NCBI GenBank assembly: GCA_031213475.1
Contig: JARUPZ010000003.1
Location: 10,505,963-10,569,962, forward strand
Reading direction: 5' to 3'
DNA length: 64,000 nt
DNA from: Nereocystis luetkeana
Lineage: Eukaryota; Sar; Phaeophyceae; Laminariales; Laminariaceae
In this document: positions 9,705-46,600 of the stretch, piece by piece
Position numbering within the stretch: position 1 is the first letter of the stretch
How the letters are laid out: each line of letters begins with the position of its first letter
The notes under the pieces: model-generated
Databases searched by the model: none
What the model was told of the DNA's origin: nothing
Seen by the model: the letters and a program-made list of their open reading frames with translations, nothing else
Program-made: the position numbers and the translations under genes

Positions 9705-9939
9705 CACTGATAGAAAACAACAGAGTACACATCACAACACATGAACAACTATCTGAAGCACATCGCACACCCCAAAGAAGAAAAAGTGAAACCAGCGTAC
9801 CTGGTACGCATTTATGCATGCATGTATAAATAGGTACTGTTACGTACGACTACAGAGTTTATACGTGGATACAGAAAAATTCAACCGAGGGAGGGCAGAT
9901 GCATACGGAGAGAAACAGAATAGACAAAGTCAGGTATAT

Positions 9940-10640
9940 CTGGTGTGATGGAGTAGCACATCCATTGCATAGGAACGCATATACCCGTATGCGGATCCTT
10001 GTATGGTAGCACATACCTGGTAGCTCTTTGGGGATACCAGACATACCTGTTGACGAGTATTATATGGTTATACCAGGTATGTATTACGGGGGACCATAGT
10101 TAATAGGACCTATCGTATATAAAAAAAAACTAAATATTTAACCATATTTACTGACAATATTTGGCCCTATTAAGTATGGTCCCCCGTAATAGTGTCTTGG
10201 GAATATATCTGCAGGCGAATCTCGGATGGTTACGAGCATACATGCCAGGTAGCTCATAGGGGATATTCAGCGGAGCCAGTTCAGACACCCCCTTTGCGCG
10301 CAGAACATTCTGTTATAAGTCTGGGAACCTTCTGTATGACAACATCCCGGTAGAGAACATTCTGTTATATAGCTGGGAATCTTCTGTGGGACAACGTTTC
10401 GATAGACTGTATTTGCATACAGGTAGGTTTTGGTCAACGTCTGGGCTGAGTTGTGTCCCCGACGATGCCCTCCTTACTCACTTGAGTTTTCCCCCTTCCT
10501 CTCAACTCACTTGAGGACCATTAAAAAGAAGTTCGTGAACTACAAGCAGCGTGTTCTACCCAGTACCGACATCCCTGTGCCTCTTACCAGCTTATATCTC
10601 TGCACCCCTCTTCACGTTTGGCGTCCTCGGCAGGGCTGGT
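9940..10640 (+). repeat. Direct duplication, unit 1 (MITE-filled)
   Basis: A roughly 600-bp unit that recurs at about 10985-11550, with landmarks ATACCCGTATGCGGATCCTT, CAGAACATTCTGTTATA and GACGATGCCCTCCTTACTCAC. This copy contains a family A MITE (10082-10191) and two TACCWGGTA words (10014, 10071). All three are absent from unit 2, which therefore preserves the empty sites. Confidence 0.85.
10082..10191. mobile_element. MITE family A, copy 2 (empty site known)
   Basis: A full palindromic copy. Unit 2 of the surrounding duplication reads TGTAGTGTC at the matching place (about 11122-11130), while this copy reads TGTA-element-TAGTGTC. This directly shows a TA target duplication. Confidence 0.92.
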
Positions 10641-43600: not shown

Positions 43601-46600
43601 CCGCGAACGAAGAAGAGCGCCCTGGAGACGGTCATGACGGTCCTGCACGCGGGAGGGAAGTTCGGGGGGGACGAGAGCGGCTACAAGGTGTCGGGGGGGC
43701 TCCACGGCGTCGGCGTTTCGGTGAGTTGGGGGGGGAGGGAGAGAGGGGTGGACAGGGGGGGGGGGGGTTAATGTGCGATGTGGGAGATGAATGATGCTGC
43801 TGCCGTCTTTGTTGCTTTGTGTTTGTCATGTGTCAAAATAGATTTTTGTGTGTTGGGAATAGGATTTAGTGCTTTTACAGCCGTTTCTCGTAGAGCACCA
43901 GGTAATTGGATTTGTTTCAGTTCTCGGTTTGCCGTTCACCGCCAAATGTGGTTATTGAGGAAATCGGTGGCGTGCTTTCCTGGGCGCGCCCGCTCGCTCA
44001 CTGCTGCAAAAAAAAATCGGCCCATTGTTAATTCGAGCAATTTGTTCCCGAAACGTGGCTGCTGTTCTCGAAGGGTTAATCTTGTTTCTCTCCCTTTGCC
44101 CCCCACCTCCGCGCTGACCCACCTACCTGCCGCCTTTGCAAGGTGGTAAACGCCCTGAGTGAGTGGGCCAAGGTGGAGGTTGTACGAGGGGGACAGCGGC
44201 ACTTTTTGTCGTTCGAGAGGGGCAAGACGCAGGGGGGGCTGGTCTCGGAGGAGGCGGGGGCGGACTCTCTGGGGGGGACGGTGGTGCGGTTCTTGCCGGA
44301 CCCTCAGGTGACTTCCGTATTTAAAAAAAAAAAAAAACAAGGCATGAAATATGAGAGGAAAGAGGGGGGCGCTCGTTGGCCGAAGGAATGACAACCCGAG
44401 TGTGAAGGGGTGTGCGTCGAGCGTGGTGGAGCGAAGTGTTTTTGTTCCTCTCTTCTAAAGAGTCAGTTGCTGAAGGCGTTTTTTTCCGGGTGGGGGTAGG
44501 GGGATTGCCAGTGGCGGAGTTGTGGTCGTTGTTGTTGGTGTGGTCTCTCATGACCTCGTTGCTTTTGTGGTTACAGTACAGGGTGACAACGTAGGGACGA
44601 AACGTATACACGAAAAAGAGAATAGGAAACAGGACACAATAATGCTGATATTACGGGGGACCACAGTCAATAGAACCAAATATTGTTAGTAAAAATGTTT
44701 AAATACATACCAGGTATTTTTTTATGTATACCATAGGTCCTATTAACTATGGTCCCCCGTAATAGAAACACAACGAACAAACGAACAGGCACACAAACAC
44801 GGAATTGAGGAACTTGGACAAACAAACGAACAGGATGGAAATTATCAGGGGGGGCTGATTTTCGGATGTCGCGTCCAGCCGAAAGTAAGTATACGTAGGC
44901 ACACACGCGACGGCAGCAGGGCGGATACTAACATTTTTTTCCGGGAGCCTTGGGAGAGTTTTTTTCGTATTACTATTACGGGGGGCCATAGTTAACAGGA
45001 CCAAATATTCTTAGTAAAAATGGTTAAACAATTTTTTTTTTTTGTGTACCATAGGTCCTGTTAACTATGGTCCCCCGTAATAGTTTATTTTCGTTTTTTT
45101 TCCCCCTTTGCGGTTGCAACAAACAAGACGAAAACGCCGAAGCGCTCGTGACGAACTTCTGACGGCATAGCAAACATGGAATGCTGTATGCTCGCGTCAT
45201 CAATCGTCCGCGTTTTCTTTTGGCCTCAACTCCGCGGCAGCAGCTGTTGGTGCGGGGCAACAGTCTTTGTTTGTGTCCGTTCACGTTGTCTTCATCGCTG
45301 GTCAATTTTGGTGTGTCCAGATTTTCAAGACGACTACGGAGTTCGAGTTCGAGCGGCTGTCGGGTCGGATGGACGAATTGGCGTACCTGAATGCCGGCGT
45401 GACCATCGTTATGACGGACGCCAGGTGATTCTTCTAGTGGCGGATTTCTCGCGCGCGCGTTGGGTCTTACTCCGGCGATTGATTTAACTCATGCTGTGTA
45501 ACGTTGTACCAGGTATTTTTTTTCTTTCAATCATGGCGAGCAAGGTCGCGTTCGCTTCCACAACTTTTCACGCGTTTATGTGTACCTGGTAAGTGGGTAT
45601 TCGCACCTTGTTTGTTTGCCTAACCCTAACCCTTGCCGTAGGCAGGGGTGTCAACCTTTTTTGTTTTTGTTGTCCGTTCAACCCCCCTTCCTCCCCCCCC
45701 GCCCTTTTTCGTCCGTTTCTCCAACTTCGCTCCTTCCCCTTTCTCCCTACCCCCAACCCCCCCTCCCCTCCCCGTTCGCCTCCTCCCTCCCCCCCCCCTC
45801 CCCTTCCCCCCCTTGCAATGACCAAACAGAGAGGGCTTGGACGAGGAGGGTAAGTTTAAGAAGACCGAAACGTACCTGCACGAGGGCGGTGTGCAGGAGT
45901 TCGTGGAGCTGATGTGCAAGGATAAGATGGAGCTGCACCCGGAGATGAAGGTCGGTGGCGGATCTCTCCCTACCCTTCCCCTCCCCACCCCTCCCCCTCC
46001 TTCCCGTCCCGTTCCGTCCCCTTCTCTCATCTCCACCTTCCCTCAGCCTTGTCCTCGTCCCCATCCTCGTCTCCGTGATCACCCTTGTCCTCATCCTCGT
46101 CGTCATCCCCGTTCCTGACGCGCGTCATACGCGTCCCGTCTGGAACTCCTCCGCCCACCCCCGCGTTCCTCGCGGTGTGTGCTTGTTTTTTTTTTGTTCT
46201 CCGTTTGAAACTTTTCCGTTTATGTTCTACCTCAGGTCATCCGTGCTCTCGGTGAGCGCGGCAACGTCCAGGTCGAGGCGTGCCTGTCGTGGAGCAGCGA
46301 CATGTACACCGATTCGCTCGTCTCCTTCGCTAACGGCATCAGGTATGCACATGGTATGCGGCTTACAGGGGTTTTTTACTCGGGCGCGATGCCGTGTGAT
46401 GCGATGCGATGCGAGCCCATGCAGTGCGCTGCCATGCGCTGCAATTCGATACGACGCAATGCGACGCCATGCCATGCCGCACCATGACATGCTACCCCCG
46501 CTCCCCTCCTCCTCGACGGCGCGATCGGAACATGAAACTGGGTAAAGGACGGGAGACGGCGGCACCCACCTGGAAGGGCTCAAGTCCACCGTCACCAGGA

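Follow-up and report, generated by a model that had tools for sequence, protein, structure and literature searches.

Transposons of the Tc1/mariner superfamily have a stagger of 2 to 3 nt, and the A or T (W) at the center of the Sleeping Beauty footprint represents the mismatch of two identical overhangs. The footprints of Sleeping Beauty read TACAGTA and TACTGTA (PMC4378557, partial text) and correspond to its 3-nt 3′ overhangs (PMC7827188, partial text); for Passer, a member of the pogo group, footprints of 0 to 4 bp were given (PMC9976928, partial text). In the present study we analyzed a stretch of 64,000 bp from Nereocystis luetkeana (assembly GCA_031213475.1, contig JARUPZ010000003.1, positions 10,505,963 to 10,569,962 of the forward strand), which is called the window below, and in particular the nine-letter word TACCWGGTA, whose two forms are TACCAGGTA and TACCTGGTA. 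Like the Sleeping Beauty footprint, this word has TA on both sides, is palindromic, and carries W at its center, but its TAs are separated by 5 nt and not by 3, a variant with 6 nt exists, the copies number about 180,000, and the parent was not found. It shares with Tc1/mariner footprints the insertion at TA with duplication of the TA and a palindromic target preference around it. We consider it probable that TACCWGGTA marks donor sites, repaired after excision, of a DNA transposon that inserts at TA and moves by cut and paste; the parent element is putative.

A previous sequence-only reading of the window had drawn attention to the word at five places, and at all of them it was present as described. 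In total, the window contains 22 copies, whereas 100 dinucleotide-preserving shuffles had a mean of 0.30 and a maximum of 2. In the complete assembly (465,085,209 bases in 1,987 contigs) we counted 182,395 copies, i.e., about one per 2.5 kb, compared to 1,744 of the reversed word. TACCWGGTA is among the most over-represented 9-mers of the genome. The tandem form TACCWGGTACCWGGTA was found 15,917 times, compared to 2. For closer analysis a sample was assembled from 25 stretches, each of 10 kb and placed at round positions, eight scar-centered loci, and six loci picked for transposases or scar pairs. Most counts exclude loci L005 and L006, which overlap with L004, but both were kept in the BLAST database used for paralogues; without them, the sample comprises 353,460 bases. 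The 25 stretches (250 kb) contained 80 copies of the word. Counts of half-sites, W centers, one-mismatch versions, and the related word TACWGTA refer to 282,054 bases including six of the scar-centered loci. In this part, the central W was A in 47 and T in 56 scars, and the 103 perfect copies were accompanied by 117 one-mismatch versions distributed over 26 variants, an excess of about 40 by estimate. These mutated neighbors suggest, as a rough figure, a mean age of the scars of a few per cent divergence.

The sequence-only reading had listed five pairs of paralogous sequences differing by 7 bp after a TA. By alignment, the scar at 9798..9806 and the empty site of its inverted partner near 311-318 showed a clean 7-bp difference, and so did the scar at 42031..42039 in repeat family D, where 11 of 12 aligned sisters have a plain TA. 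The pair formed by 10071..10079 was clean by eye, with TTATA-[CCAGGTA]-TGTA followed by a miniature inverted-repeat transposable element (MITE) at 10082-10191 and GTGTC, compared to TTATATGTAGTGTC at 11118, where both scar and MITE are missing; the aligner fused the two into a single gap. The remaining two pairs were ambiguous. For the scar at 10014..10022, the paralogue near 11058 is probably empty when compared by eye (CATA-[CCTGGTA]-GCTC versus CATA-ACTC), but a gap of 5 bases was set by the aligner, and BLAST returned an ungapped 9-base state. The scar at 44708..44716 does lie within a MITE, but its sisters are variable, with many gap lengths and a TA that is not kept in all of them; one sister, in locus L019, reads AACCAGGTA.

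The left and right flanks of each scar were searched separately in all sampled sequence and the distance between them was measured, so that the test reports length and not the presence of TA. Of 118 sampled scars, 111 were tested and 7 were dropped for being close to the end of a sequence or within AT runs. Alignable paralogues were obtained for 11 of the 111 and gave 32 pairs. In 25 of these, from seven sites, the paralogue was shorter by exactly 7 bp; one pair agreed in length, and 6 differed otherwise. Among 974 pairs for control words of the form TA-N5-TA, 23 were shorter by this amount, 662 had the same length, and 289 fell into neither class. The 25 shorter pairs were contributed by 44708 (10), 42031 (8), L020_207 (2), L038_1168 (2), and three sites with one pair each; the only paralogue found for the scar at 16642..16650 was 6 bp shorter and had no TA. 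The L020_207 paralogues retained a plain TA, as did those sisters of family D that were displayed. Under a stricter version of the test, one scar site was informative, with 6 of 9 pairs shorter compared to 4 of 292 for the controls. In a genome-wide search with one TA of family D, 100 of the 105 matches were listed, and these contained an insert of CCAGGTA four times and of CCAGGGTA and CCATGTA once each. The same TA also showed slippage duplications and the short inserts TGTA, CGTA, GGTA, AATA, TAATA, and CACTA, which suggest scars of further TA transposons. An all-against-all census of gaps contained 17 with a length of 7 bp, of which 3 were equal to CCWGGTA. The alignment of scar L010_6958 with TGTCTGGTA was ungapped, and a minority of the copies may therefore be chance words and not insertions. 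Taken together, the abundance of TACCWGGTA is real and strong, and the paralogues confirm that the word arises by insertion and not by substitution.

These lengths bear on the idea that TACCWGGTA is a functional or methylation-linked palindrome kept or spread by mutation and selection. HIP1, the highly iterated palindrome of cyanobacteria, is likewise a short palindrome of extreme genome-wide frequency, CCWGG is a motif of cytosine methylation in bacteria, and a palindromic word present about once per 2.5 kb throughout the genome would fit such a role. Unlike HIP1, however, the word is inserted at TA and not built by substitution, as the length difference to its paralogues is exactly 7 bp in most cases and only 1 of 32 pairs had the same length, and mutation or selection on the word would leave both an 8-bp variant and the target preference described below unexplained. 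We therefore consider this origin very improbable; some scar copies may have gained a function later.

For the analysis of the target site, 174 scar flanks were used after removal of neighboring scars and AT runs, the left and right sides being brought into one orientation and combined. The flanks were biased toward T at position −8 (chi-square of 18), A or T at −7 (73), A at −6 (48), T at −2 (25), and A or G at −1 (30). Smaller deviations were observed at −5 to −3 and none from −9 to −12, so that a palindromic preference extends 8 bp from the TA. The 7-bp insert alone holds no such information; the bias is in line with target choice by a transposase complex. The 28 flanks of TACCGGTA also favored A at −6. 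The preferred T-A at −7/−6 and G at −1 are present within each scar, so that scars may attract further scars.

From the form of the scar we infer a parent element, an overhang, and a mismatch step. Insertion of the element would duplicate the TA, and its excision would leave either flank with a 3′ overhang of about 5 nt that reads 5′-CCAGG. When annealed face to face, these overhangs would pair as C:G, C:G, A:A, G:C, and G:C, and resolution of the central A:A mismatch to A or T would lead to TA-CC(A/T)GG-TA. Joining one base out of register would give CCAGGG (reverse complement CCCTGG) and not CCTGGG, CCGG may arise if the mismatched base is lost, and joining without overlap would rarely give CCAGGCCTGG, with TACCAGGCCTGGTA expected rather than TACCTGGCCAGGTA. 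The variants present in the genome were compared with these forms. The 8-bp variant with CCAGGG, TACCAGGGTA, occurred 11,422 times (control, 409), and TACCTGGGTA, the form with CCTGGG, 1,578 times (control, 362), corresponding to about 9:1 after subtraction of the controls. Adjoining an existing scar, CCAGGGTA was present in 41 of the 100 matches listed, 10 of which represent one repeat family, and CCTGGGTA in none of 72 readable matches; counted as 31 of 90 versus 0 of 72, the difference has a Fisher p of ~1e-9. The two-ended joint was found 10 times as TACCAGGCCTGGTA and once as TACCTGGCCAGGTA, with one copy in each control. In the region C1:1304145-1308362, TACCAGGGTA recurs mostly at intervals of 528 bp, apparently in a tandem array that copied one scar.

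The same data address the second explanation offered by the sequence-only reading, a 7-bp micro-element, in which an enzyme writes CCWGGTA into TA repeatedly and a larger transposon was never present. The uniform insert, the 15,917 tandem copies, and the lack of a parent in the sampled sequence are all in line with it. However, CCAGGG, CCAGGCCTGG, and the rule that these joints carry A are what joining of two CCAGG ends predicts, perhaps together with CCGG, and the sister scar TATTAATA, which is described below, has a resident MITE as source with the same target preference. We judge the micro-element to be quite improbable. The other explanation of the earlier reading, the footprint of a transposon that targets TA and has ends starting with CC, is well supported by the paralogue lengths, the target preference, and the variant joints, and it can now be sharpened to ends of 5′-CCAGG and a stagger of 5 nt.

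Tandem scars are frequent, and under the transposon model each scar would offer two new TA targets, leading to their accumulation. Replication slippage, or spread within a few repeat families, would also multiply the word. Among 59 plus-strand tandem pairs listed, all from contig C1, pairs with the same central letter (AA 23, TT 17) prevailed over mixed ones (AT 14, TA 5), and repeat family R has two or three scars at one site, both as expected for slippage. However, an alignable paralogue existed for only 11 of 111 scars, indicating that the contexts in the sample are mostly unrelated, and slippage does not create the first copy. As the general origin of the word, this process seems extremely unlikely.

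A second dispersed TA-flanked scar word, TATTAATA, is attributable to a resident MITE. It was found 93,112 times in the genome, compared to 10,689 times for the reversed word, and 25 of its 28 paralogue pairs were exactly 6 bp shorter while 2 had the same length; for other TA-N4-TA words the corresponding numbers were 167 and 962 of 1,692. Its target preference is TAC-TA, with T at 0.61, A at 0.53, and C at 0.53 at positions −3, −2, and −1, respectively. The MITE, named M1, has a length of about 107 bp and the structure TA-TTACGGGGGACCATAG...CTATGGTCCCCCGTAA-TA. Its target duplication is TA, as shown by the empty paralogue near 11118 of the copy at 10082..10191, and its insertion sites have the same preference as TATTAATA (T in 19, A in 18, and C in 24 of 32). 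One site of a repeat family was present in three states, as plain TA (window, ~33226), filled with M1 (L027, with a mutated right end), and with TATTAATA (L020). The three states that the sequence-only reading had proposed to look for at one locus were thus found for the sister scar and M1; for the CCWGG scar they were not, as its parent was not found. TATTAATA could be formed from a 4-nt overhang TTAC, the mismatched last base being replaced to give TTAA. Both scars share the TA target, the palindromic insertion, and the spread throughout the genome; they differ in that the M1 source is present, with ends TTACGGGGG, and in the target TAC-TA-GTA of M1.

Several observations weigh against the proposed excision origin of TACCWGGTA. 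In 0.28-0.35 Mb no TA-CCAGG-ended element was found, either by scans for terminal inverted repeats (TIRs) and clustering of half-sites, which covered 282 kb, or by comparing flanks on one side. The second TA was lacking in 115 of 321 half-sites, which by estimate is about the chance level, and for DDE_3 no match was obtained among 30 candidates scored. The 5 nt between the TAs (6 nt in the minor form) exceeds the stagger of Tc1/mariner elements. In the paralogue test, 18 of the 25 shorter pairs derive from just two sites, 44708 and 42031, so that the pairs are not independent, and 3 of the 25 are tandem scars of one family (L037, L038), for which slippage of a 7-bp unit is possible. The TA was lost in some paralogues: that of L035_2723, in L027, has TG, and some sisters of 44708 have no TA. 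As to the variants, TACCTGGGTA still exceeds its control about 4-fold, more than the slipped-joint model predicts, an excess for which decay of other forms or repeats may account; the 16 flanks of TACCAGGGTA lean in the same direction as those of the main scar, with no position being significant; and the comparison of two-ended joints is small, 3 of the 10 copies lying on small contigs and possibly being redundant. At the three-state site of M1 there is one clean TA paralogue, those in L023, L025, and L028 being messy or without the TA. Finally, CCWGG scars are uniform, whereas inferred excisions in rice were mostly ragged, with 8 of 94 perfect (PMC4423477, partial text).

The missing parent would be explained by programmed DNA elimination, the elements being retained in the germline while the sequenced tissue shows the excision joints. 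In contrast to this inference, the excess of one-mismatch versions and the location of scars at conserved places in diverged repeats let the scars appear old and inherited, and tandem scars would require adjoining elements; elimination is hardly likely to be the cause. If TACCWGGTA is the footprint of a transposon, a rough bound, which is weak for elements exceeding the 10 kb of a sampled stretch, limits its resident copies to a few thousand at most, and the parent may be a very mobile rare element, an extinct element, or a non-resident donor. A more far-reaching version, which we regard as doubtful, is a hit-and-run transposon that nearly always leaves, or whose donors are extrachromosomal or viral, with a 5- to 6-nt stagger, about 180,000 fixed scars, and almost no residents. 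A stagger of this length is not known from any TA-targeting transposase.

Searches of the genome for DDE_1 gave 28 matches (48 candidates scored), which we take to represent the Tc1/mariner superfamily. Passer and other pogo-group elements are assigned to the same superfamily; the footprints of Passer differ from the scars described here. In locus L036 (contig C33), positions 537-2724 are occupied by a DDE_1 element of 2.2 kb with 27-bp terminal inverted repeats TA-CAGTACCGGCCAGCTAGTAAG starting with CAGT, and the word TACWGTA is about 2-fold enriched (78 versus 36 expected). Both findings show that TA-flanked elements of such kind live in this genome. Locus L035 contains a stretch 94% identical to the L036 element, in which no terminal repeat was found, and locus L034 (C34:4443800-4450000) carries two inverted DDE_1 copies with 99.5% identity whose repeats begin with TACCGTAATCATGCGG. 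As a source of the CCWGG scar the DDE_1 elements examined were rejected, as their ends are CAGT (L036) and CCGTAATC (L034) and not CCAGG. Between the sole genomic copy of TACCTGGCCAGGTA (C18:10301460-10301473) and a DDE_1 match at C18:10297713-10298102 the distance is about 3.4 kb, a proximity with a chance of about 0.05% by estimate, which makes this place the best lead to the parent.

Further candidates were discarded. In the window, 28-164 and 11555-11691 form an inverted repeat with 90% identity at a distance of 11.5 kb and have TACCTGGCC in both arms; as the similarity continues past the TA, it is not the terminal repeat of an 11.6-kb element. Inverted pairs are also present at 207-402/9714-9914 and 696-953/8814-9067, apparently as parts of a large rearranged inverted duplication. 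The sequence at L030 4287-4586, which has the ends TA-CCAGAAAACGG, proved to be a local repeat found nowhere else in the sample, and TACCTGG-N15-CCAGGTA in L007/L008 is a single locus readable as two decayed scars. The repeat family around C1:9257997 carries scars at a conserved place and is not a source, and TAGGWCCTA is merely internal sequence of M1.

Scars of this kind are known; unusual here are the 5-nt stagger, the copy number, and the lack of a source. The main text of a paper on transposable elements of Ectocarpus (PMC12477816) contains none of the words footprint, MITE, and excision, and among the titles and abstract openings listed in searches of the open-access PMC literature there was no comparable scar at such a scale. 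If the proposed origin is true, a mutational scar ranks among the most over-represented 9-mers of this 465-Mb genome, and the transposon copies that remain are apparently far fewer than the scars. They would then form a countable archive of past transposition, for which one assembly suffices, even for otherwise invisible elements, a natural data set on how 5-nt overhangs are end-joined, and a direct means of testing the number of jumps that a genome can fix. Annotation restricted to elements would overlook such scars.

Besides the copies discussed above, the word count located scars in the window at 3117..3125, 8109..8117, 8478..8486, 28175..28183, 30830..30838, 34239..34247, 42399..42407, 45507..45515, 45583..45591, 52830..52838, 53326..53334, and 56013..56021, and tandem scar pairs at 8415..8430, with one TA in common, and at 31190..31205. 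The sister word TATTAATA was counted at 1633..1640, 20957..20964, 39100..39107, 41254..41261, and 42068..42075; the copy at 907..914 aligns to a paralogue of the same length and may not be an insertion. Copies of M1 are located at 1516..1624 (TA-TTACGGGGG...CCCCCGTAA-TA), 29267..29375, 44649..44764, with the scar at 44708 inside, 44974..45082, 58835..58943, and 63414..63523. BLAST matches revealed a partial copy at 21443..21511 and diverged copies at 47331..47442 and 61784..61893.

A Pfam search with 10 of the 32 open reading frames (ORFs) of at least 150 amino acids in the window gave one reverse-transcriptase match, just under the curated cut-off and in an ORF of 558 amino acids at 14659-16335, and one weak coproporphyrinogen-oxidase match, also under the cut-off. 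An Rfam search of the window gave no matches. Within an M1-type repeat at 22865-23894 we observed an insert of about 1 kb with inverted ends CTAGAGATGGCACCCGG, whose target duplication is possibly TATGTA.

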